This document shows, in pieces, positions 37,696 through 59,375 of a DNA stretch of 64,000 nucleotides. The first letter of the stretch is position 1; every line of letters starts with the position of its first letter. Source of the DNA: Alopecurus myosuroides (taxonomy: Eukaryota > Streptophyta > Magnoliopsida > Poales > Poaceae); contig CM054063.1 of assembly GCA_028641055.1 (NCBI GenBank), positions 49,415,827 to 49,479,826 of the forward strand, read 5' to 3'. A program made the position numbers and the translations under genes. Below the pieces are notes generated by a model. That model did no database searches and was not told the DNA's origin. It saw nothing but the letters and a program-made list of their open reading frames with translations.

Positions 37696-38813
37696 GGGCG
37701 TTCCGGTGGTGGTACCGGTGGTACATGCGCCAAAACCCCCTTCGGGTAGCTCACGGCGGAGCCCAGGGCGGAGGCCACCAGTGGTACCGGTGGAAGGAAC
37801 CTCATGTGTTCCCACCGGTACCTCCGCCTGTCCAACTGAGCTATAGGTGGGGTTTTCTACCGGTGGAGGATCCGCCAAAAGAACGATCGGGTGCATCACA
37901 ACGGAGGCCAGGGCAGAACCCACCGGTACTACCGGTGGGCGGAACCTCCGTCGGAACCACCGGTACCTCCGCCACAGAAGAATGAGCAAAGAAGAAAAGG
38001 AGTCGCGCGGGCTCCAAGTTATGAAGACCACCGGTGGTACCGGTGCAACGTGGGAGTGGCCAATGGCTAGATTTGGGGAAGGGGTATTTATAGCCCTTCC
38101 CCTACCTCGTAAATGCTAAGCTTTTGATACTCTCTCTCTCTCTCTCTTAGCCATTAATGCAAGCTTCAACCTCCTAGATCTCTCTCTCCAACCATCCAAT
38201 CACTCCATAACTTTGTGGAGAGCTAGAGGAGACCTAGATCCGTGATTCCACCAAAGGAATTACAAATCCATCCACCACATCCTAGTAGATCTAAAATCCT
38301 ACTTGAGGCCTAGAAACCTTAGTAGATCTTGTGCTTGTAGCTTCCACCTTGTTACAAAGAATCTTGGAATATTTTGATAGCCTCCATCCATCTTGTGGAG
38401 TGTCCTCAACCTCGTGTAAAGGTTTGATCAACGCCTTCAAGTCAACCTCATAGTGGAAACGAGAATCTCCCTCACCGAAGAAGCTCAAGGAGAACAAGGT
38501 GTGCACAATCGTGCTATTGAGGAGCTCCTAGGTGGCTCCCCACCTCTCCAACATAGACGTACTTCTCTTGAGAAGGAACTACATGAAACATATCCTTGTC
38601 TCCTTGTTTACACTTGTGGTTTATCTTGTTACATTTCTTTTTTACTTCTGTTGTGTATCATATCTTGTATCACATAGGTTGCTCACCTAGATGCACATCT
38701 AGAGAACCTTGTATTACTTGTTTAGCCCAAACTAAAAAGGAAAATAAGAAAAATTGGTAGTCAACCTATTCACCCCCCCCCCCTCCTCTAGTTGACCATA
38801 GTGCACTTACAAT

Positions 38814-42775: not shown

Positions 42776-43155
42776 ATCCCTCCCGTCGTCATAAGAAGAA
42801 TGGGGATTGGTGAAATAATTCCCATTTCGGGTTACCGGATGACGGAGGGAGAAGGACTATGCCCCACTCAAGTGGAGCCATTGGCTACACCCATTGATAC
42901 TCAAGCTACCAAACAAGATGCACAAGCTCTCAAGCTAATGATCAAGGTCAAGCAAGTGATCAAGGCCAAGCTAATGACCAAGGTCAAACAAGTGATCAAG
43001 GCCAAGCTACTCATCAAAGTCATGATCAAAGTCCCATCATTATTTATAGAACTAAACCTAGTGGTGATCCTTCACCCATTGATGATCAAGGCCAAGATGA
43101 AGATGGACATGTCTCCGATGAAGAAGGTGATTCTCAAGCAATATCCAAGGAATCT
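42776..43155 (+). pseudogene. Integrase-RT linker with Gln/Asp-rich 36-bp repeats
   Basis: In the frame that joins on to RT the linker contains QANDQGQASDQG followed by QANDQGQTSDQG, then a partial third copy (about 42930-43025). This is a 36-bp in-frame tandem repeat. The rest is acidic and low-complexity, as is usual between Copia integrase and RT. One frameshift separates it from the integrase C-terminal frame. Confidence 0.55.
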
Positions 43156-44873
43156 TTGGAGGATATACTAGCTCGTAGAGAAAAGAGAAGGATAAAGAAT
43201 CTTGAACGAGCGGGTCACATGGAGGACAAGATACTTGGGAAAGTTCGTGGAAGGGTTGTCACTAGGAAGCAACTGGCGGATTTTAGCAAGGCTCATGCTT
43301 TTGTCTCTTTCATTGAGCCCAAGAAGGTCTATGAAGCTCTCGAAGATCAAGATTGGCTTGAAGCCATGCATGATGAACTCAACAACTTCGAGCGCAACAA
43401 GGTTTGGAAGTTAGTGCCAAAACCCAAGGATTGCAAGAATGTTATTGGCACCAAATGGGTGTTCAAGAACAAGCAAGACAAACATAGTATCGTCGTTCGC
43501 AACAAGTCAAGATTGGTGGCCCAAGGGTTTTCTCAAGTCGAAGGTGTTTATTTTGGTGAAATCTTTTCCCCCGTAGCTCGTCTTGAATCTATTCATATCT
43601 TACTTGCTTATGCATCTCATCATAATTTCAATCTACAAAAAATGGATGTTAAGAGTGCTTTCCTAAATGGCCCCATTAATGAGTTAGTATATGTCAAGCA
43701 AACTCCAGGTTTCGAGGATCCCAACCACCCCGATTATGTCTACAAACTCGATAAGACGCTCTATGGACTTAAACAAGCTCCACGTGCATGGTACGAGCAC
43801 CTTAAAAAGTTTCTAGTGGATCATGGGTTTAATGTTGGTTTAATCGATCCCACCCACTTTACCAAGACGGTAGGTGACTTGTTCATATGCCAACTCTATG
43901 TGGATGACATAATTTTTGGGTCTACTAACACTTTGTTCGATGAAGAGTTTTGCAAGCTTATGACCAATAGGTTTGAGATGTCTATGATGGGAGAATTGGA
44001 GTACTTCCTTGGCTTTTAAGTGAATCAATATCATGAAGGAACTTCCATCAAACAAGCCAAGTACACGCAAGACATGCTCAAGAGATTCAATATGCATGGT
44101 GCCAAGCCTATGAAGACTCCCATGTCCACAACCCTTTTGACTTGAAACCCGACCCTAATGGTAAAGGGGTAGATCAAAAGGTATACCGCTCCATGATTGG
44201 ATCTTTGCTTTACCTTTGTGCATCTAGACCGGTATCATGTATGGCGTAGGTAAATGTGCAAGGTTTCAAGCCTCTCCGAGGCAAAGTAATTTGGAAGCGG
44301 TCAAACGAATCTTTCAATATTTAGTTCATACCCCAAATTTTGGTCTTTGGTATACCAAGGGTTCAAGTTTTCATACCCCAAATTTTGGTCTTTGGTATAC
44401 CAAGGGTTCAAGTTTTCAGCTCATTGGGAGAGAAGACAGGTAGGAAGTCTACATCCGGGGGTTTCCAATTCCTTGGTCGCTCCTTGGTGTGTTGGTCTTC
44501 GAAGAAGCAAAACTGCATTGCCCTCTCCACCACCGAGGCCGAGTACATTTATGCGGCAAGTTGTTGTGCCCAATTGCTTTGGATGAGGAAAACCTTGAAG
44601 GATTATGGTATTCATTTTGACAAGGTGCCTCTTCTTTGTGACAATGAGAGTGCTATCAAGATCGCCTACAACCCCGTTCTTCACTCCAAGACGAAGCAAA
44701 TTGAGATCCGTCATCATTTTATTCGGGATCATGTTGAGAAGGGTGATATTGATCTCTCATATGTATCAACCAAGGATCAACTTGCGGATATCTTCACGAA
44801 GGCCCTTGATGAACTAAGATTTCAAGCTTTGAGGAATGAACTAAATGTCATAGATTCATCCAACTTCACTTGA
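43156..44873 (+). pseudogene. Copia reverse transcriptase and RNase H, broken
   Basis: RT runs at about 43370-44019, with WLEAMHDELNNFERNKVW at its start, then KMDVKSAFLNG, LYGLKQAPRAWYEHL and the catalytic YVDDIIFGSTN. A TAA at 44017-44019 interrupts it before QYHEGTSIKQAKY. RNase H resumes with RKSTSGGFQFLG and CIALSTTEAEYI, then LLCDNESAIKIAYNP and the C-terminal ADIFTKAL (to 44873). The region between has a 45-bp in-frame duplication. RT and RNase H copy genomic RNA into cDNA. Domain order after integrase defines Copia. Confidence 0.85.
44327..44416 (+). repeat. 45-bp tandem duplication inside pol
   Basis: Two identical 45-bp copies (44327-44371 and 44372-44416) duplicate the 15 residues HTPNFGLWYTKGSSF in frame. 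The two copies show no difference, so the event is recent compared with the many stops in the same gene. Confidence 0.85.
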
Positions 44874-45702: not shown

Positions 45703-47451
45703 ATGGATGCGGGTATGTGGCTCCCTCTCTCTCCCATCTCGTTGACGGATGGAGAAGCACTAGGAGCAACCTATTCTTCGCATTTAGATGTATGAAGTAG
45801 GGTTATGGAGTAGGGATTCGCGAGTACAAACCCTAGAAATTTAGATTGTGACCACTAGGCATGAATTACTTCGATTACTAGGGTGGATTGTGTTCATATG
45901 CCCCTATCTCGTTGTTATTCCTCTCTAATGTTCCCCAATCTTGATTTCTTTGATTTTTGCGTTGTTTAAACTTGAGTATTCTCTCTTCATCGTGATTTTC
46001 CTTCTATATCTCTTGCATAGATGCATCCGGTTCAAAGGGAGTTTGTACCAAGAAGATGGGCGGTCGCAAGGCACCACGAGTGGATGAGATCGAAGAAACA
46101 TTGGATCCCTCTCAACCCAAGTGCAAGCCAAGGTTCCCGGCCCCAGAGAAGACTTTTCCATGGAAGGGGAAATCTGCCTCTCAAGTGTCCGAGAGTGTCT
46201 TCTTGGAAACTCGCCGTGAGAACCCGTACATCATTGATCGAGACCGCTTGATGCCACAGTTTCGGGGACGGGACACTTGATTTCATACAGTGTTCCAAGC
46301 ACAGATATACAATGAGATTCTTATGAGGAAGACCAAGGAAAATGTTGCTCTGCAACATGCTATTAATCTTGGTCATATGGAGAGGAAGCCCAACTACTTT
46401 GGTCAAGCTCTGGAAATTGTTGATGTCTTTGGTCTTCGCTCCATTATGCAAGTGAAACAAGACTTTGATGAGGGGCTTGTGTGTGAGTTCTTGGCCACTG
46501 TTCACCTTGCCAATGAAACTGAGCGTCACCTCATTTGGATGACAAAAGGGAAGAAGCTCACCATCAAGTGGTCTGAAGTGGGTGTTCTTCTCGGTGGCTA
46601 TCCGGATCATGGCCCTTTTGGTGGTGGCCCCGAGTATGAGAACGAGTGTTTTCGAGTTCACTTTGCCAAGGACTCTACCATCAACAAGGATCAACTCACT
46701 CCTCTCTATCATTGGAAGAAGTTTGTTGTTGGGTTCACCAAGGGCATCTACCCCACCTATGACATTATGCTTCGTATCTATCGCGAGACAATCAACCCTA
46801 AGGCGGGCAACATTGATGAAATCCAAGGTTACCTCAAGAATCTCTTGCTCCTTACTCATGAGAAGCGGCTCTCTGGTATGAATCAAAAACTTGATGTGCT
46901 TGACTATATATGGAATGAACTGTGGCATGTCATTGTGCAAAGGAAGAATGCTTTCTTTGGGCCATTCATCATGAAAATCATCTTGCACGTGTGGGATGAC
47001 AAGTTCTCGGAGGATCCCCTTGATGACACCAATTGGATCCTGCACACGGAGAAAAGGCTTCTTATTAAGGACCATACCGAACCGGTTGTGCATCCCACTC
47101 CCGCTCCTCGCAAGGGCAAGGCCAAGCCAAGAGTCATTATTGATGATGAAGAAGAAGAAGAGGCCAGGCCCTCCTCCTTCTGACAATGCTTTCAAATGGA
47201 TGGCTCGGGCTCTCAAGAAGGTGTTCCATTTGAACAAAAAGATCAAGCAGCATCAGTGGGAAGTTCACTATGACAAGGAACTCAAGCACCGCAAGGCAGC
47301 ACGGGCAGATAGGCAGCTTCATCGTGATGCAGGGGAGACCGTGGATTCTCCCGTTGAAGATAGCATTACTACTAGGGGAAAGTGGCAGACCAAGGACTCT
47401 AAGGGAAAAAAATCATTGAATGGTCTCATGAGGAACCTGGAGAATAAGTGA
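45703..47451 (+). pseudogene. Sirevirus downstream gene (env-like position) with one intron
   Basis: A small exon (45703-45712) joins exon 2 at 46021 across a 308-bp GT-AG intron (GTATGTGG to CTCTTGCATAG). The joined reading starts MDADASGSKGVCTKKMGGRK and stays in phase with a frame of about 480 codons. One TGA at 46278-46280 and one frameshift in a GAA run near 47145-47170 break it. The core has FLATVHLANETERHLIWMT and IKWSEVGVLLGG, reminiscent of the 'putative plant transposon protein'/ATHILA ORF1 groups. The tail is Lys-rich. It sits downstream of pol, where Sireviruses can carry an env-like gene. I see no signal peptide or membrane anchor, so envelope function is unsupported. Confidence 0.6.
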
Positions 47452-47902: not shown

Positions 47903-48448
47903 TGAAATATCATCTTCCATTTTGATAATTGATGACAACATAACTAAAGGACTAATCTCTATTTTGAGCATGTGCAGGGTTTGTTTGATACTTATCAAAA
48001 TGCCAAAATACTCCCAATAATATTCTCAATTGCATTACAATATTTATCCAAAAGGAATGAGCTCAAAAAGACAAGTTTGGGAAACTATTTCTACATGTAG
48101 CGGAGGCTCCGGTGAAACCACCGGTAGCTCCGCCCCCTGCTGTTTCTCAGCACATTCCCAGGTGGGGGGTTCCGGTGGTGGTACCGGTGGTACCTCCGCC
48201 AAAACCCCCTTCGGGTGGCTCACGGCGGAGCCCAGGGCAGAGGCCACCGGTGGTACCAGTGGGCGGAACCTCCGGTGTTCCCACCGGTACCTCCGCCGGT
48301 CCAACTGAGCTACAGGTGGGGGTTTTCTACCGGTGGAGCTACCGGTGGAGGATCCGCCAAAACCACGTTCGGGTGAATCACAATAGAGGCCAGGGCAGAA
48401 CCCACCGGTACTACCGGTGGGCGGAACCTCCGCCGGAACCACCGGAAC

Positions 48449-48926
48449 TGTCGTGGGATGATCACGGCAGATGTTACCAGGGGTAACTGATCTTGGGGCA
48501 AGTCGACACAGGCGTTTGGGAGAGGATTTAGCTCAGAGGAAAACATGATGGAATTTAATCTGGTAGCCGGCGATGAAGTCGCCGAGTCTCCGATCTCGCT
48601 TTATTAACTCGATCTCTTTGTGTACAATGGATACTCGATATTCGGTGATATGATTACTGCTTGGATCTCTGCAAAGCTAAGCATAGGGCCGGTTTATAAA
48701 GCATCCGTCCCCCTACCTGGCTTGCCCTCCAAGGCGCAGCTTGAGTCCTACCCGAACACCGCTTACAAACCCTAGCTTTCCTTACTGCAACCCACAATCC
48801 GGGTTACGAGGCCTATAAACCTTGGGCCTTCTAGAAGTTTCTTTATCCTTAGCCGGATCCTGCGCAGCGTCCTTTGGGCCGGGTTATACCTTGGAGTTGG
48901 CCTACCGGGTTATTATCCCCCCATCA
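48449..48926 (-). mobile_element. 3' LTR of the young Gypsy element
   Basis: This 478-bp LTR is identical over its left 240 bases to 57952 onward and has about five substitutions in the rest. The minus strand starts TGATGGGGGGATAATAACCC and contains a TATA box TTTATAAA (plus strand ggtttataaagc, about 48691-48702), so U3 is about 230 bp. Confidence 0.9.
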
Positions 48927-50120
48927 GTAGTCCCCAGAATAGCTTGGGCTTCAAAGATCCCTCCTTGAAGCGCTGGCTATTCCCTGCAAAAAATATCAAT
49001 CACACGAACGCGTGGAGACCGAGTTGAAGTACTTCATGAAATGACTAGGCCCAACTCCCTGGTGGCCACATAGTAACCCGACTTTCCTTCCAGATGCCTT
49101 GCTCAACTTCCCGGTCTAAGCCTTGATAAGAATAGCAAAACTTTATACTTCTCTCGATAATTTGTCTTGATACCGCGGAGAGGATCTGCTTCTATTTTTC
49201 GTTCGGAGACCTCGATCTACACTTAAGGCGTATCTCGCAGATTTCACACAAATAGCCGTTACCCCGTAATTTCCGGGTCCCACCCGTTGGGATGAGTTTT
49301 TCCACCCCGGCCGTTATAAATAAGTCCTTAGAGGTAACCCTAACCCCAACGGCTCACTTTCCCCCATTTCTCCTCCTTCCTTCTTTCAAGCTCGAGCTCA
49401 CAGAGCATCACCACGGAAGCCTCGCGCGCATCACCGGAGCCCATCCGTTGCCGGTTGCGCTCCGCCACAGCACGCTCCGCCCCGCCGCCCAGATCCGCCG
49501 CCAGACCCCCAACCTGTCCGCCAGGAATCGCGAAGGGGCACCAAGCTTGCGCCATTTGCCTCCGCAAAGCTTCACTTCAATCTCCTCCGGTAAGTCTCTC
49601 ACATTCTCTAATTTTCCCTCACAACTTCTTAACTCTCCCTCAGATTGGATCTGGATTGGGCCGCCCACGATTTCTCGGGTCACGCCGAATTAGGTCACTA
49701 GTATTCACTCTAGCCCACCCAATAGGTAGGATATACCCTTCAACTCACTCTCCTACCAACTGTAATCATTAATTTCACCAATAACCTAGAAATGGAATTC
49801 CCAAACTGGGCTCGAGCCGCCCAAATCTTCCGCCCCTGTTACTATCACCCGGAAAATCCTCCTTCTCCGGCTCATTTGCTCATAACAGATGTACGGACAC
49901 CCACTTATCATCCCCAAACGCTCATCCATGCATAAAATTCTACAACTTTTGTAATAATGCACGATACCCGGACAATTCATACCTTGCTTAGCAAAATAAT
50001 ACCCGGATCATATTTAACTTCCAGGCTAACTTGACACCACTCGTCAATACTCGGTCAACTGATAATTTCCGAGTTTCGTTTCTCACATCTTTTCTTCTGA
50101 CGCTTTTTCAGGTTAACCCC
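48927..50120 (+). promoter_or_regulatory. Promoter, 5' UTR and UTR intron of the antisense gene
   Basis: A TATA box, TATAAATA, lies at 49315-49322, outside the LTR. It is followed by a CT-rich leader. The leader appears to be spliced, with donor CTCCG|GTAAGT at 49590 and acceptor TTTTTCAG at 50111. That acceptor lies nine bases before the ATG at 50121, in a good plant start context (CCCCATGGC). Leader introns directly ahead of the start codon are common in plant genes. The part 48927-49260 is the polypurine tract and spacer of the element on the minus strand. Transcription is inferred, not observed. Confidence 0.55.
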
Positions 50121-53100
50121 ATGGCACCCAAGAAGCAGGGAAAGCTGCCGGTTAAAGCCAAAACCACAAACTCCATATCCGCCAACTGGGCGCGATCCTC
50201 CGTCACCAAGGCCAAACTGGAGGAACTGGTAGAGCTAGGGGTTCTTCCCTCTCAAGAAACTATCCACTGGAGGGTACCGGGTAACGAAACCCGGCCCACC
50301 CCAGCAGAAAATGAGGTAATTTGTTTTGTTGAACACGTGACCCGGGGCTTCCGGCCTCCGGGTCACCCTTTCTTCCGCGACGTTTTAAGCCATTATGGCC
50401 TTCGCATTTTCGACATAGGACCCAACTCTGTACTAAACATCTCCCATTTTATCGTTCTCTCCGAGTCTTACTTGTGCACTCCGCCAAGTTTGGCTCTCTT
50501 TGTCGAACTTTTCCAGTGCAAACCGTGCCGCGAAAGCGGCGACGGTGCACTTCTTACTTGCGGCGGGGTTTCTATCCAACGCCGCAAGAACTCTTTAATG
50601 CCTCCTCTCACCCTCAACTCCCACGTCAAGCACTGGCAGCTCTCGTACTTTTACTGCCGGGACACCTCCCCACTCGGCGAAAAGAAATTGCCGGGTTACT
50701 CGGAGGGTCAGCTTGACATTTCTGAAACCTTCAATGGGTTTGCCCCTGACTCGGAAAGGGAAGAAATTCTGCCTCTATTGGCTAAAATCTCCATCCTTTC
50801 TGCCCAAGGCCTCATCGGGCTTAACCTGGTGAAGACTTGGGTCGATTTCCGCATCCAACCCAACTCCATTCGCGCAAAATTGATGTGCGAATACTCGGGG
50901 CAAACCACGGACCCAATTCTATACTCTACCAACAGCTTCGCTCCTAGTGACACCAACAAGACAATCAAGGGCTTTCTGACAGAGAAGCTCGAGGTAATCC
51001 GGAACATAGCCGGATTAGAGCCCTTCACTCTCGAGAACCCGGCCCCCGCGGTAAGGACCTGGTTTTCTCGATTCCACCCTTATCTTCTTTACTTGATACA
51101 ACCATTAACCCTTGCTCTTATGCTTTTACTTCAGGCCGATGATGATTTCTGGAAGATGGACGCTTCTCCTAACTCCGGAAACCCGGAGGAAAAGGAGGAT
51201 GCCGCTAACTCGGACGAAGGTACATGCTCAGTTCCTTTGAGTTCGTCGCATCCCACTTTTCATTTTCCTATTGTAACCATGGTAATTTTCAGAACAAGAA
51301 GACCAAGACGAGGAAGAAGAAGCTGATGGCAAAGTGGAGTCCGCCAGCGATGAAGATGAACCAGAGCCGGCAATTAAGGCCGGATCTAAAAGAAAACCCC
51401 AAGGGGTCGTCTTCAAGGTTTTGCATCAATTTCTCACATCTAATTCACGTTCCTGTGATAATATTCCTGAGCTGACCATGGCATTACCCCCTTTTGCCAT
51501 ACCTGAAGGAGTCGCCTATGACCAAGCGCAGGGTAACTCGGAACCACCCGGGCGATGATGCCCTTAACCCGGGTATTTCATCACCTCCAACTCGGCATAC
51601 TGGTACTGACCATACCCTTATTTAAACATAAAGATCCTTCTAAAATACTCCCTCGCAAGGTAACCTCACACCTCGTTTGGTATTTTTCAGTTTCATCCGG
51701 TTCTAGCAGCGAATTCCCTGCAGACCTTATGGTGAATCCCGGGTAAAGTTCTTTTCCTAATGTTATACCATACTCTCGCCGTCTTTTTCACGGCTATGTG
51801 CTAACTGTGCCTTCATATTTTTCACAGGGCCACGGTCGTTATTAGTGACCAAGAAGACATGGAAACCGAGGACCCGGGCAAAGAGAAGCCAACTAATGAC
51901 GTGTTTGCCGCAGCTGGTGATGGACAAGCGTCACCGACAGACCCGGCTGGGCGAGAAGCCGGGTATCCGATAGCCTCGCACGCAAGCGAGAAAGAAGATA
52001 CTGCCACTTTGGGCGCGAGAGGAGGAGCAGACCCCGACATTCGAATGACCCGGGTGCCATCTCCTACTAAGAGGAAAACTTTTTCTCCAAGTTTCCGCGA
52101 CCCCGAGACTTCTAACTCGGGTAACGATAATTTTGACCAGCTGATGAGCTCTCTCCTCACCATGAAAGGTTCAGAGAACAACCTCCTAGAGCGTATGTCT
52201 GCAGCGCATCAGGTAATTGACACCGGATATCTCTTGGTACATACCTAGTCCCCAAGTTTCGGGCATAACTTACCGAAGTTGTGCTCGGTACTTCACGCAA
52301 TACCCGGTTTTCCATGATATCCGACTGACACTTTCGTTCCTTACAGGCGGAAGTGACCCGGTCCGATGAGGTGTTACTCAAGACCGAACAGCTCCTACTT
52401 GCTGAGGTAAAACGAAGAGAAGCCCTTGAGGCCAACATGGAAACTTTGAAAAAAGACGTTTCCAAATACAAAAAGAAGTACAACACTGCTCAATCCGTGC
52501 TGAAGAACTTATCGAACCAGATTGCGGATACTTATCGCATCTTGCTAAGTGAGCTTTTTGCCTTCGACTAACTTAATTGCCTCTACTTTATCGTTATGAC
52601 AATCGGGATAACTGGTATACTTTCCTTTTGTTTCAACTGCAGGTGCGAACCTCGCTGCTCCAGAGGACGATGCCATTGCCAAGGTAAAAACATTGAAGAC
52701 TGTGCTCCGGACCTTTTTTGCTGGCACAAAGCTTATATTGGACGCTGTGAAGTGGCCTTCCGAGGTATACCCGGGTGAAGAGAATCTTATGCAAGCCTGC
52801 TCGACGGTGCCTGGATGGATTGAGATATGGAAGCGCTCGTCCTGCCGGATCGGTATGACCCGGGCCTTGACACTGTCGAAGGCTTACTTTCCTAAGCTTG
52901 ACCCGGCAAAGGTAGTATCCGGGTTTCCAGAATTAAAGGCTGATGGCTCCAAGTTTACACCCAAGGACTTCAAGGCCATACAATCCGCAGTACGCCCCTC
53001 GGCCACCGCTTTGGCCGATAAGATGGACCTGGACACAATCATGAGCTCATACGATGCTGAAGGAAAAATCATATTGGTAGAGGCACCCCCTCCCTTTGAT

Positions 53101-53298
53101 ATGTTGGAAAAATGGGCGACTGATCTGGCCAGGAGAAAAGAAGAAGCTGCTAAGAGAGAGGCCGAGCTAGGATTACGGCCGTCTACCTCTACGCCAGCTG
53201 TCCCTCCACCTATCCGTCCTGACACGGAAAGTCCGGGTAATGCTGCTGGAAAGGCTAAGGAGCAGATCCAGGACCAAGACCCGGAAGACCGCTCTTAG
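50121..53298 (+). CDS. Eight-exon antisense gene, Transposase_28-type (putative gypsy type transposon) protein
   Basis: Exons are 50121-51050, 51135-51219, 51293-51417, 51472-51532, 51691-51742, 51828-52212, 52347-52548 and 52643-53298. All introns are GT-AG. The phases (0,1,0,1,2,0,1) join to about 831 codons with no stop. The third acceptor (CCTGAG) is the weakest. Exon 1 holds the plant 'putative gypsy type transposon' domain, roughly residues 60-210, with FVEHVTRGFRPPGHPFFRDV and HWQLSYFYCRD. Exons 2-3 are acidic and exon 6 is low-complexity. Exon 7 (about residues 547-613) is a coiled coil with LEANMETLKKDVSKYKKKY. Exon 8 is helical with a Pro-rich tail. The biochemical role of this family is unknown. 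The gene runs opposite to gag, so its introns survive copying of the sense RNA. Despite the family name I see no transposase catalytic motif. Confidence 0.75.
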
Positions 53299-54638
53299 GA
53301 TACCGAGTAGAGCGTTACCTGGTACTTTTGTGTTTTAAAACTAATATGATTTTTATGGTGCGTGTGTGCACCCTTGATATTGGTACCATCACTTGTAACG
53401 TACTTTTGGTTCGGAATATATTTGTGCCTCTCCCGGCTTTTGATAGTCTTGACACTTGTCTTATTCTTTAAACTTATTCTCGATACCCAACTATTTGTTG
53501 ATTCTCTTTGCGAGACTCGGTTTTCCGAGCATCACGGGTTTTGATAAGTGGACTTTTCTTTAAGTCCCCAAGACTCGGAAGCTAGGGTCTCTCGAGCTTC
53601 AATAGCTAAACAGTTTGTTTCTGTTTCGAAGTCCCCAGTCCCCATGACCCAAAGTACGAGCCAGGGGGGTGCGGCCTTTCTCAGAGGACAAATTGCTCTT
53701 TACCAAGCCGAAAACCAATAGCCGTTTGCGTAAATACTGAAGTCATGCTTAATACTCGTTGAGTTTCCGGCTATTAGCCTTGTACTCTGCATAGACTTGT
53801 GGTTTAGATGACCCTTTTGATTATCTTGTACTGTAAGCCGGCTTTCGCGTGGATACCATGCTGTTACATCTATACGAAAAACAGGGTCAAGCAAATCCCA
53901 TTGGGCTGCGTGGTTGATTGTAATCGTAAGCGAACAGATCATGCCACTTTAGTGCGAGTCACATCGAGCTTAAGTAAGAATAACCAAGAAATTTGGCTCC
54001 TTCGTCCGGTTATAAGATTGCAACCGTACTCGTCTTGCGAGTAATCGGCCCTCATAACTCATAGGCATCAAGGCCGGGTATTTGGGTTCGTGACTGCTAT
54101 TTAAGCAGCTCAGCCCCCAAAGACCTATGTATGTGCAATGTATTTTGATGATACTGATGTATTGATAATAACAAGTACCACTTACCTGTAATCGAAGCAA
54201 AGACCATGACAATACTTGAAAACCATCTCTTTTTATTGATACGATAAAGTTTGGGTCAGCAAGCCGCCTCATTAAAAACCTTCCAGTCCCCTTAGGTACC
54301 CTGGGTAGGAAAAGAGCGCGTCTGAAACCTGCTGCCCGTTACACTGTCTAGTTCTTTTCGACAATCGGTCCCGGGCTGGCGCGACCGATGCACATTCTCC
54401 ACTTGTTAGACCCTTTCATGACGAGTGCCGAGTTTGCTAGCCAATCCGGGTGTGTCGTTATCGCAGCGCTGCTAGCCGTAGACGACGATGTGATTTCCCC
54501 TTCTATGCCAGACAATTTGGAGGGATCTTTCCTGATGAAAGCCACCATCTTAGCATCTTGCTCTGCCCTGGGTTTTGCTTTTTCTTCCTCAGAGCTCGGC
54601 CTTTTTGAAGTTGCCCTTTCCTCCAGGTCCGCTTGAGA
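53299..54638. other. Convergent non-coding spacer of the young Gypsy
   Basis: About 1.3 kb lies between the stop of the antisense gene and the stop of gag-protease. It holds no frame or pol-like motif on the minus strand, where RT would be expected. It should contain the 3' end of the antisense transcript, though I see no unambiguous poly(A) signal. Confidence 0.5.
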
Positions 54639-57600
54639 TCAGTAATGCCTGAGTTCCTCTTTCCTACAGGCTTGCTCAGCCATTGCTGCATCTCCTTCAT
54701 CGCACTCAGCCGCTATATCTCGATTTCCATGTATGGTAATGGTCTTCTTAGGTCCCGGAATTTTCAGCTGTAGATACACATAGCACGGCCTTGCCATGAA
54801 TTTGGCATAAGCCGGTCTTCCAAACAATGCGTGATAAGGACTGCGCAACTTAACCACCTCAAAAGTAAGCCACTCAACTCGATAATTGTCCTTTGATTCC
54901 CCAAAAGCTACCTCCAACGCAATTTTTCCTTTAGGGCACGCTGAATGACCCGGCACTATCCCGTGAAAAACCGTTGTACTTTTTTGTAGCTGAGATTTCT
55001 TTAGACCCATGCGCAGGAAAGTTTCCCAGTACAGGATATTGATGCTGCTCCCTCCGTCCATCAAGACTTTTTTCAGCTCATACCCATTGACCTGTGGTGC
55101 CACTACCAATGCTAAGACTCCCGGGTGATCCACTCTATCCGGGTGATCCCTCCTGCTCCATGTTACCTCCTGTTCTGACCATCTCAAATACCTCGGAACA
55201 GCAGAAGAAACTGAGTTAACCGCCTGCTTTAGCATCTTTTTGTCCTTGTTAGAGCCTCCCGTAGTATGCACATGATACTGACCCAACTGTTTGGGGTTAG
55301 CCTGGAAACCTCCCGCTCCCCCTTGATTGTTGCCCGGATTTCCTGCTGCCGGGTTACCGGCTGGGGGTGGACCGTTGCCCAAATTTCCACCTGGACCCGG
55401 GCCTCCTCCCCGACCCGCACCTCGCATGGCTCTGTTTACTTCCTCGTTCTTCCATCTCTGTAAGTCGGCGCATTGCTCCAAGGAGTGATTAGCCGGCTTG
55501 CCGTTCCTGCTGTGCTTCGGGCACGCCATCCTGAATATATCCCAACTGTTGCCTGGCCTCGGAGGTCCCTGATAGTGTCCTCCATTATGATTTCCGGTAT
55601 TAAAATTCCCTTCAGATCTGGGTCTCGAAGACCCGGCTTCAGTATTAGCTACAAACTCGGAACCTCCTTCAAATGGGCGCTTGTTCTGACTATTTCCGTT
55701 ATTACTCGGTGCCGATCCATTGCCGGTTCTTCCACTATTACTGGTATTCACCTTCGCTTTCTTGTCATCAACTTCCTCCTCTGTAGTGTCTGTTGCGGCG
55801 TGTTTGTTGCACGCATCCATTAATTCTCCCATCGTAACCTCCGATGCATTCCTACTGGACTTCATGCGAGTTAACTTTTGTACTAAAGGAATATACTTGC
55901 ACGTTTTTGCCATAGCTTGTAGCGCATCTTTGGGCTGAATATCTGTGGATGAGTGAAGTATCTCCATAACCCGGCGTACCCAGCTGCGTGCTGATTCTCC
56001 CTTCTTCTGAACGCATCGCTCTAAATCATCAATAGTGAATAGCTTTCTGCACGTTCCATGAAAGTGCTTGACGAACACGGTCTTCAGTTCTTCCCAGGAC
56101 TTGATCGATCTTTCTGGCAGGTTGGTGAACCATAACTTTGCTGCTCCTTCTGACATCATCAAGTACATGAACTTGGCTTGAAGATTCTCGGACGCATTGC
56201 GGATTGACATTGCCATCTCATAACTACTCAACCATGTTTCCGGATCCATGGTCGGTTCATAATTCACTACTTTTCTCGGCTCTTTGAATTTTTCCGGGTA
56301 AGGTTCAGCTCTGATGTCATCCGAGAGACACTTGGGCCCTGCGAGGACGGTTGAGGCTGGCCTTACTCGGGAAGCGTGCGATCCAGCCGGGGGCGCAGCG
56401 GGGCGCGGTGCTGCAGGCAACCCATGTGCAGCAGACCCGGCCCCGGCTCTCCGAGCCCTGGAGCTATCCACAAACGCCTGCGCCACCGATGCTGCCGGAA
56501 CACGGGGAGGAGGCGGCATTTGCTGCTGCTCTTCCCTCCGCCGCGCCGAGTTTGCTTGAATATTCCCTTGTTGTTGACTGGCGTATGGCGTCCCATGCAT
56601 CCCGCTTCTGTGGTCCGGGTAATTGGCCTGCTGCGCCACTGCAGTGTGCAGTAGATCGATCGCTTGCCGGGTCTTTTCTGCATGGGGCGATTCTCCTACC
56701 GGGATCTGGTTCAATGCAAGCATTGCTGCATACACGTTGTCCATGGGATTGTTGTAGTGGCCTGCTGGTGTGCGAAACCGTGACGGTGGCTGTGGTGGCA
56801 ACTCGTTGCCGGTTGTGACTCTGGTTCGTGGTGGGGGTAACCCGGCCTGCACGTTTGCCGCGTGGGCTTCCGCTGTTGCCGGCTGAGGCGCAGTTCCCTG
56901 GTTTACCGTTGGGATCGGTTGGTCCTGAGGCGTAATAAACAAAGCTGCCGGGTTATTGACCCCACCCGTGGCCGGTAGTCTAGTTTGATGTCTCTGGTGT
57001 ACTCTAGATGTTTCCTCTCGGAGCCGGGTTTCCAATGCATCCAGCTCGCGTTGACGCGTAGCCATCCCTTGTTTCTCCGCTTCCACTTGCCTTCTTTGCT
57101 GTTCCAACGCGCGGCGGGCCACATCCAGGTCCCTGACACGTTCAGCTGCGTTTTCTGGAGTGATAACCGTAGCAAGGACCGTGGGGTATAGGATCAGATT
57201 ATTGTCGAACAAGGCCGGGTGGCGCGGGTTTGAAGGACCCGCCCCCGGTGTCCGGTTTCCCAGGAATCCGAACGTATTCGCGTGCAACTCCTCATCCGCC
57301 GCACGGCTAGTCACTGATGCCGACTCTCCGTCGACCCGGGCCGGGATCGGGTTTCCGTTAGCTGCGTCCTGCCGCTGCGCCAATGCCTGAGCCGCCCCGA
57401 CCGGAGTCGTGGTCACGTTTCCTTGATTAAGGTTGGCTGCGGGAGCCGTGTAGACCGCCGCTCGGCGTATTACGCTTGTTGTGAGTTCATGATGTTCTTC
57501 TCCGCTGTTATCTTCTCCGTACCGGTCTTCCAGCAGGTCCCGGATAGATTCAGTATCATCCTTTCCACCGTCCGGGTCACGCGGGGCCCATGCCGGCTCC

Positions 57601-57887
57601 TCCGGCTGTTCCCACTGCGCGATGGATTCTTCTATATGGTCTGTTGCTCCAACTGATTCTTCTCTATCTGATTGGGCGTAAGTAGCCTCCCCTGACACAG
57701 AATCAGATCCAACATCGTCAGGAGCCGAGCCAGAGGTACATACCATACCGATGAAGACGCTGATCCGGCCGATTGTCACGACAGATCCGGATTCGAGGCG
57801 ATCCGATTCTGGCCCCCGGCCGGAGTCGTCCACCACCTTCTCTCCTTTGTGGTCGTCATAGATCTCTCCGACGACGAGGTTCCTCAT
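54639..57887 (-). CDS. Intact gag-protease of the non-autonomous Gypsy
   Basis: The open frame has about 1082 codons from the ATG at 57887. An upstream ATG at 58049 lies in the LTR before the primer-binding site and cannot be the normal start. Order: acidic N-terminus, a coiled coil (VRDLDVARRALEQQRRQVEA, about 57140-57080), Pro/Ala-rich linker, and the gag core with DPETWLSSYEMAMSIRNASE and SWEELKTVFVKHFHG (about 56260-56060). A Cys/His cluster (CPKHSRNGKPANHSLEQC) in place of a standard knuckle and a Gly/Asn-rich stretch follow. An aspartic protease with active site DGGSS lies at about 55058-55044. The frame stops soon after the protease (QACRKEELRHY) with no RT. It has no internal stop, so it may still make particles. 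Confidence 0.8.
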   Translation of the reverse strand: MRNLVVGEIYDDHKGEKVVDDSGRGPESDRLESGSVVTIGRISVFIGMVCTSGSAPDDVGSDSVSGEATYAQSDREESVGATDHIEESIAQWEQPEEPAWAPRDPDGGKDDTESIRDLLEDRYGEDNSGEEHHELTTSVIRRAAVYTAPAANLNQGNVTTTPVGAAQALAQRQDAANGNPIPARVDGESASVTSRAADEELHANTFGFLGNRTPGAGPSNPRHPALFDNNLILYPTVLATVITPENAAERVRDLDVARRALEQQRRQVEAEKQGMATRQRELDALETRLREETSRVHQRHQTRLPATGGVNNPAALFITPQDQPIPTVNQGTAPQPATAEAHAANVQAGLPPPRTRVTTGNELPPQPPSRFRTPAGHYNNPMDNVYAAMLALNQIPVGESPHAEKTRQAIDLLHTAVAQQANYPDHRSGMHGTPYASQQQGNIQANSARRREEQQQMPPPPRVPAASVAQAFVDSSRARRAGAGSAAHGLPAAPRPAAPPAGSHASRVRPASTVLAGPKCLSDDIRAEPYPEKFKEPRKVVNYEPTMDPETWLSSYEMAMSIRNASENLQAKFMYLMMSEGAAKLWFTNLPERSIKSWEELKTVFVKHFHGTCRKLFTIDDLERCVQKKGESARSWVRRVMEILHSSTDIQPKDALQAMAKTCKYIPLVQKLTRMKSSRNASEVTMGELMDACNKHAATDTTEEEVDDKKAKVNTSNSGRTGNGSAPSNNGNSQNKRPFEGGSEFVANTEAGSSRPRSEGNFNTGNHNGGHYQGPPRPGNSWDIFRMACPKHSRNGKPANHSLEQCADLQRWKNEEVNRAMRGAGRGGGPGPGGNLGNGPPPAGNPAAGNPGNNQGGAGGFQANPKQLGQYHVHTTGGSNKDKKMLKQAVNSVSSAVPRYLRWSEQEVTWSRRDHPDRVDHPGVLALVVAPQVNGYELKKVLMDGGSSINILYWETFLRMGLKKSQLQKSTTVFHGIVPGHSACPKGKIALEVAFGESKDNYRVEWLTFEVVKLRSPYHALFGRPAYAKFMARPCYVYLQLKIPGPKKTITIHGNRDIAAECDEGDAAMAEQACRKEELRHY

Positions 57888-57930
57888 GCTTTTCCGAGCT
57901 TCTCCCGTGATGTAAACACCTTTGGACGCA

Positions 57931-57949
57931 GGCCCCACGGTGGGCGCCA
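57931..57949 (-). other. Primer-binding site, tRNA-Lys type
   Basis: The minus strand reads TGGCGCCCACCGTGGGGCC, the complement of the 3' end of plant tRNA-Lys. It lies two bases from the 5' LTR at 57952. It is intact, in contrast to the eroded sites of the older elements here. Confidence 0.85.
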
Positions 57950-57951
57950 AC

Positions 57952-58429
57952 TGTCGTGGGATGATCACGGCAGATGTTACCAGGGGTAACTGATCTTGGG
58001 GCAAGTCGACACAGGCGTTTGGGAGAGGATTTAGCTCAGAGGAAAACATGATGGAATTTAATCTGGTAGCCGGCGATGAAGTCGCCGAGTCTCCGATCTC
58101 GCTTTATTAACTCGATCTCTTTGTGTACAATGGATACTCGATATTCGGTGATATGATTACTGCTTGGATCTCTGCAAAGCTAAGCATAGGGCCGGTTTAT
58201 AAAGCACCCGTCCCCCTACCTAGCTTTCCCTCCAAGGCGCAGCTTGAGTCCTACCCGAACACCGCTTACAAACCCTAGCTTTCCTTACTGCAACCCACAA
58301 TCCGGGTTACGAGGCCTATAAACCTTGGGCCTTCTAGAGGTTTCTTTATCCTTAGCCGGATCCTGCGCAGCGTCCTTTGGGTCGGGTTATACCTTGGAGT
58401 TGGCCTACCGGGTTATTATCCCCCCATCA
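57952..58429 (-). mobile_element. 5' LTR of the young Gypsy element
   Basis: This is the partner of 48449-48926. It contains the LTR TATA box on the minus strand (plus strand tttata at about 58196-58201). It would drive the genomic RNA that covers gag-protease and, in antisense, the spliced gene. Confidence 0.9.
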
Positions 58430-59265
58430 GGAACCACAGGTACCTCCACCATAGAAGAATCGGCAAAGAAGAAAAGGAGTCGCGCGGGCTCCAGGTTATG
58501 AAGACCACCGGTGGTACCGATGGGAATGGCCAACGGCCATATTTGGGGAAGGGGTATTTATAGCCCTGTCCCTACCTCTTAAATGCTAAGCTTTTGATAC
58601 TCCCTTTCTTAGCCATTAATGCAAGATTCAACCTCCTAGATCTCCCTCTCCAACCACCCAATCACTCCATAACTTTGTGGAGAGATAGAGGAGACCTAGA
58701 TCCGTGATTCCACCAAAGGAATTACAAATCCATCCACCACATCCTAGTAGATCTAGAATCCTACTTAAGGCCTAGAAACCTTAGTAGATCTTGTGCTTGT
58801 AGCTTCCACCTTGTTGCAAAGAAGTTTCGGATTGTTTGAGAGCCTCCATCCATCTTCTAGAGTGTCCTCAACCTCATGTAAAGGTTTGGTCAACGCCTTC
58901 AAGTCGACCTCATAGTGGAAACGAGAATCTGCCTCGCCGGAGAAGACCAAGGAGAATAAGGTGTGCACAACCGTGTTATTGAGGAGCACCTAGGTGGCTC
59001 CCCACCTCTCCAACGTAGACGTACTTCTCTTGAGAAGGAACTACGGGAAACATATCCTTGTCTTCTTGTTTACACTTGTGGTTTATCTTGTTACTTTTTT
59101 TTTTTACTTCCGTTGTGTATCATATCTTGTATCAGATAGGTTGCTCACCTAGATGCACATCTAGAGAACCTTGTATTACTTGTTTAGCCCAAACTAAAAA
59201 GGAAAAGAAGAAAAAATGGTAGTCAACCTATTCACCCCCCTCTAGTTGACCATAGTGCAGTTTCA

Positions 59266-59375
59266 ACCGCCGTGGATCGACGACAGCATCACCGTCCACC
59301 GACGCCAACATCGTCGAGGACCTACGAGAGCATCTCCGTACACGGGCGGCAGCACGGGTAGCACCGCAGCCCGCT
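59266..59375 (+). repeat. 22-bp minisatellite, right half
   Basis: The array cut at 27886 resumes after the Copia element with the duplicated ACCGC. About four more degenerate units follow (AGCATCACCG..., AACATCGTCG..., AGCATCTCCG...) before the period fades near 59375. Confidence 0.65.

Follow-up and report, generated by a model that had tools for sequence, protein, structure and literature searches.

Antisense TRP28 genes located before the 3' LTR have been described as a hallmark of the Retand lineage of plant LTR retrotransposons, including elements that miss part of pol (PMC11963269). The main text of that study (Vicient 2025) reports antisense TRP28 ORFs in 97% of the Retand clusters (all but two of 63) and predicts that TRP28 binds DNA; its Table 1 includes two blackgrass clusters, 2 and 3b, which have gag, protease and TRP28 and are without RH and INT, the text counting one such cluster (PMC11963269). 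That study used ORF Finder and presents TRP28 as ORFs (PMC11963269). Furthermore, PF04195 (Transposase_28) tops the shared-domain table (416) in blackgrass extrachromosomal circles (PMC10606437), a rank that fits mobile carriers. Accessory antisense genes are also described from other retroelements: RIRE2, a gypsy element of rice, has an antisense ORF between pol and its 3' LTR, and gene23 of the maize element Grande, an antisense gene before the 3' LTR, codes for a nuclear protein and has its own upstream promoter (PMC7264820). HBZ of HTLV-1 is likewise an antisense retroelement gene with a nuclear protein product (PMC11963269). Vicient and Casacuberta called at the end of their 2020 review for antisense and spliced transcripts to be sought (PMC7264820). 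Both PMC11963269 and PMC7264820 treat the antisense genes as ORFs, and the word 'intron' is absent from their main texts; the terms 'antisense', 'ORF' and 'intron' are absent from that of the Fatima paper (PMC3129301). Within these open-access main texts, antisense TRP28 genes are already known and their division by introns seems to have been overlooked.

The window analyzed here, a 64-kb stretch of Alopecurus myosuroides (blackgrass) DNA, contains a gene that agrees with the Retand TRP28 ORFs in its orientation, its place before the 3' LTR, its PF04195 domain and the size of its carrier, the 478-bp LTRs and the internal region of 9,025 bp (48927-57951) falling in the published ranges of 315-1,194 bp and 7,380-12,869 bp (PMC11963269). 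It differs from them in that the protein takes eight exons and the element is without a recognizable RT, Pfam searches having found no RT domain in it that could be clustered with Retand RTs. The two blackgrass clusters of the published table share with it gag, protease and TRP28 and the lack of RH and INT (PMC11963269). The likeness to gene23 and to the RIRE2 ORF is one of description, and the counterparts here of the upstream promoter and nuclear product of gene23 are predicted ones; with HBZ no sequence relation is claimed, and the HTLV antisense promoter lies inside the 3' LTR (PMC7264820), in contrast to the possible promoter at this locus, which lies outside it.

The gene resides in an LTR retrotransposon of 9,981 bp on the minus strand (48449-58429; Table 1). 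Its LTRs differ at 5 of 478 positions, bearing out an earlier sequence-only reading that had called them nearly identical, and with 1.3e-8 substitutions per site per year this divergence gives an insertion age of about 0.4 My. A Copia-type element (37696-59266) surrounds the retrotransposon, which is nested in its 3' LTR; the Copia-type element has a gag domain (PF14223, 39332-39916) and RVT_2 (42898-44016), with LTR copies at 37696-38812 and, split by the insertion, at 48165-48445 plus 58430-59266. Between the Copia pol and 3' LTR lies a 300-codon sense ORF (46281-47183) without a Pfam match, in the position of env-like extra ORFs.

Examination of the coding capacity of the retrotransposon in the sense direction reveals a long ORF with a Retrotrans_gag domain (PF03732, E 7.2e-10). 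We take its end to be an aspartic protease, named by eye from a DGGS motif; the protease is without a Pfam match in this ORF. Directly after it comes a 96-codon minus-strand ORF (54348-54638), likewise without a Pfam match, whose end (KWRMC) presumably resembles the beginning of a reverse transcriptase. It is around this ORF that pol seems to be truncated. The 24 ORFs of at least 40 codons that overlap the expected pol place on either strand are all short, and the three longest minus-strand ORFs inside it gave no Pfam matches. Among the components of an autonomous LTR retrotransposon (gag, protease, RT, RNase H and integrase), Pfam sees gag alone in the long ORF. Given that only short ORFs lie between gag and the antisense gene, the three longest sense ones being without Pfam matches, the element is very probably non-autonomous. 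The sequence-only reading had missed this, as it had the published status of antisense Transposase_28 genes as a Retand hallmark.

Table 1. Features of the retrotransposon and its antisense gene, in window coordinates.
Feature	Position	Strand	Remarks
Target site duplication GGAAC, left copy	48444..48448	.	Sequence read at element ends
3' LTR	48449..48926	-	478 bp; window self-comparison; 5 differences from the other LTR
Possible TATA box	49315..49320	+	Only TATAAA/TATATA in 48928-50121; consensus only
Predicted untranslated leader exon without ATG	49345..49589	+	Transcription start assumed
Predicted leader intron, 522 nt, GTAAGT ... CTTTTTCAG	49590..50111	+	Consensus only
Coding exon 1	50121-51050	+	310 codons; Transposase_28 domain
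Coding exon 2	51135-51219	+	Starts ADDDFW
Coding exon 3	51293-51417	+	Acidic stretch; basic KRK cluster near end
Coding exon 4	51509-51572	+	Intron 3 boundary uncertain
Coding exon 5	51691-51742	+	Frame not singled out among six by codon usage
Coding exon 6	51828-52212	+	Joined frame, codon usage
Coding exon 7	52347-52548	+	Aligned stretch in relative P0041 shows coiled-coil-type Pfam matches, weak and below threshold
Coding exon 8	52643-53298	+	Conserved C-terminal part; includes stop
Expected pol place	53299..54638	-	RT, RNase H and integrase all unrecognized
Gag-protease ORF	54639..57887	-	Start is the first in-frame Met within the element
5' LTR	57952..58429	-	478 bp; window self-comparison
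Target site duplication GGAAC, right copy	58430..58434	.	Sequence read at element ends

On the strand opposite to gag, the eight exons and seven in-phase GT-AG introns of the sequence-only reading join into one frame as claimed; this frame is free of stops, and its length, given there as about 831 codons, comes to 832 plus the stop. The introns measure 73-134 nt, all GT-AG, and stand out from the exons in base composition (36% T and 15% G versus 21% T and 25% G). Both splice sites of intron 3 are poor (donor GTTTTG, acceptor GAAG), which makes the boundary between exons 3 and 4 the least certain one. No second copy of the gene was found in the 64-kb window. That the locus holds a spliced gene, taken by itself, we regard as close to certain.

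One way to arrive at such a frame would be for open stretches between GT and AG to be threaded together by chance, exon 1 alone being coding. The null came from dinucleotide shuffles of the 3,178-nt stretch, each threaded through GT-AG introns to its greatest length. Threading of shuffled sequence without site filters gave a mean of about 560 codons, and the longest were 728 codons in 100 shuffles and 717 in a further 200; none of 200 shuffles reached 832 codons at any of four site filters. The real stretch can itself be threaded to 909 codons, and the model that combines good sites with homology has 832. When no site was allowed to be poorer than the weakest of those claimed, the real stretch gave 879 codons and 200 shuffles at most 447; at the strictest filter (donor 3, acceptor 0.6) it gave 485, since some of the claimed splice sites are weak and drop out, and the shuffles at most 302. 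At a modest filter (donor 2, acceptor 0.4) the values were 905 codons for the real stretch, 616 for its reverse strand and 803 for the best of 32 other tiles of the window, none of which reached 832. As shuffles and other real tiles also thread far, a long threading is by itself moderate evidence.

Codon usage, with the listed gag ORF (including 152 nt of LTR) as the reference, puts the claimed frame first among the three forward frames in every exon; among all six frames it does so in seven of the eight, exon 5 failing. Furthermore, exon 8 directly matches three wheat/Aegilops proteins (P0001-P0003) in tblastn searches, with E-values from 8.5e-22 to 1.3e-18, and the alignment of the joined protein with wheat models crosses junctions 1 and 7 without a break and reaches into exon 8. 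Chance threading is thereby largely refuted for exons 1, 2 and 8, with the exact bounds of exons 3-5 less certain, and as an account of the whole locus we consider it the least probable of all.

Protein searches recovered TRP28 proteins of wheats, Aegilops and Lolium, plus contig ORFs, a total of 248 homologs at E<=0.001, of which the best 120 were examined. The highest identity among the matches listed is that of P0101, 64% over exon 1. An alignment of 52 sequences over exon 1 has 11 invariant and 81 nearly invariant residues, the other 51 sequences being 28-64% identical to exon 1 and many of them related wheat-type copies. The same searches illuminate the introns, intron 1 providing the strongest test. 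Out of 121 proteins fetched, a script scored 52 NCBI wheat/Aegilops models and 49 contig ORFs at the place of intron 1: 51 of the 52 models were spliced and one had valine (P0073), and 47 of the 49 contig ORFs had valine, with one spliced (P0041) and one leucine (P0103). A recheck of the 20 unscored proteins added four spliced NCBI models, one NCBI model with alanine (P0060) and one valine ORF (P0100), so that the totals are 55/57 spliced among NCBI models, which are themselves partly predictions, and 48/50 with valine among contig ORFs. The spliced models read xPAPA-ADDxFW or similar at this junction, like the joined gene of the window. Valine in the contig ORFs is what reading through a GT donor would give; after it, 46 of 47 go on with S, R or N and one ends at V, a pattern that would fit GTRAG/GTRAA donors as read from the proteins, where codons are not visible. 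In three contig ORFs (P0059, P0064 and P0068) the read-through comprises 78 nt, a 26-codon intron in frame, before they rejoin at xxDxFW. Judged from these proteins, the frame and at least intron 1 are common to grass relatives.

Introns 2, 4 and 7 likely have counterparts in relatives too, their segments being present in some protein models and missing from others. The intron 2 segment is retained in three proteins, intron 7 is read into in 3 of 20, and the intron 4 segment is in frame (ending NYQ) in 15 of 27 scored wheat-type proteins and missing from the other 12, a retention that is possibly due to alternative splicing or annotation error. For intron 3 a counterpart is likely, clear on the acceptor side only, the wheat donor being ambiguous. 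P0041, an 845-codon ORF on a 4,258-nt contig, is without the intron segments and probably represents the assembled spliced antisense message of a relative, with a processed copy as the alternative.

As the sequence-only reading had recognized, the protein resembles Transposase_28: PF04195 matches residues 67-134 (E 6.2e-21; 74.8 bits against a curated cut-off of 26.2) over profile positions 1-68 of 69. The fold predicted for the exon 1 domain is confident (pLDDT 85.3, pTM 0.86) and has no match among solved and viral structures; as it matches nothing, it offers no structural support here for DNA binding. The predicted C-terminal model (pLDDT 52) is too poor for use in structure searches. Profile searches with A3 and A4 against PDB sequences returned only weak matches (best E 0.21, 0.02), which were discarded. 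The protein has basic clusters, KRK and KRR, and its likely domain order is an N-terminal domain of about 310 residues, an acidic/basic linker, a probable coiled coil and the C-terminal part. Searches of viral and prokaryote collections for related loci with exon 1, A1 and A3 yielded no relatives, as expected for a plant element.

With its introns, to which a leader intron and a TATA box may be added, the locus looks like a normal plant gene, such as might come from a host gene captured by transduction rather than from an ancestral gene of the element. This origin is hard to reconcile with the presence of PF04195 in 118 of the 120 best homologs (it is absent in P0074 and P0107), with the names of the homologs, which are hypothetical, uncharacterized, unnamed or 'gypsy type' proteins, and with the main-text report that nothing similar to TRP28 was found outside transposable elements (PMC11963269), and we deem it very unlikely. 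As for the upstream elements, the region between the 3' LTR and the ATG suggests, by consensus, a leader exon and a 522-nt leader intron upstream of the coding exons: its GTAAGT is the sole one in 48928-50121, and a pyrimidine-rich acceptor ends nine bases before the ATG. Freedom of the leader from ATG was dropped as evidence, since it was not significant in a control (P 0.06-0.42).

Given that the RNA which is reverse-transcribed is the opposite strand and cannot be spliced at these introns, where it has CT...AC, antisense introns can persist through the RNA cycle, and the argument of the sequence-only reading to this effect is sound. Its further claim, that the gene is maintained by selection, stands in part: conservation of the protein among relatives argues for it, but the intact frame beside near-identical LTRs is insufficient, as all that follows from it is an intact source copy about 0.4 My ago. 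Selection may be argued here from protein conservation only. The gene might be a passenger, real and once functional in the family and here kept only through the young insertion of an RT-less element. Few mutations are expected with LTRs that differ at 5 of 478 sites, and no pol domain was recognized; against this, blackgrass clusters 2 and 3b have amplified and keep TRP28 (PMC11963269), suggesting retention in non-autonomous lineages. We regard this as a possible but rather doubtful account.

We favour, with some reserve, the proposal that a Retand-type Ty3/gypsy element here carries an accessory gene, rich in introns and complete-looking, whose spliced antisense message would give rise to a nuclear protein serving the element. 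The gene would have its own promoter, with the TATA box at 49315, and a leader intron; the host would splice the mRNA, and the protein might then go back to the nucleus, where the DNA, chromatin or RNA of the element itself would be its target, perhaps as a transcription regulator or anti-silencing factor. Taken strictly, the nuclear accessory role is slightly more doubtful than an even chance. Pol could be supplied by other elements, and the antisense product would probably benefit mainly the carrier copy or family; this could be why the antisense gene is kept in a pol-less element, and the loss of pol with the antisense gene retained hints at a benefit in cis. In a fuller version, which is less likely than not, grass Retand elements would carry an ancestral intron-rich polymerase II gene, with seven coding introns, a probable leader intron and its own promoter, that is antisense while the element passes through its RNA stage; the nuclear product of the spliced message would have a new fold and work in cis on the silencing or transcription of the element itself, hence its retention by pol-less elements.

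It could also be the antisense RNA itself that is the working product, with coding secondary: it would pair with genomic RNA, give siRNAs and limit copy number, or merely mark the element. Antisense transcription over a retroelement can yield double-stranded RNA, a possibility that has been raised (PMC7264820). Residue conservation at 28-64% identity, a conserved frame and a conserved place of intron 1 are unexpected for a noncoding RNA, and we consider such a role improbable beside that of an accessory protein.

The lineage that antisense TRP28 genes mark is an abundant one among plant retrotransposons. If these genes are spliced, surveys of uninterrupted ORFs would catch mainly exon 1 (310 of 832 codons here); over half of the protein, with the conserved C-terminal part in it, would escape them. 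The conserved introns furnish a simple test of expression, as reads spliced at them stem solely from the antisense message, and spliced antisense transcripts are what the 2020 review wanted looked for (PMC7264820).
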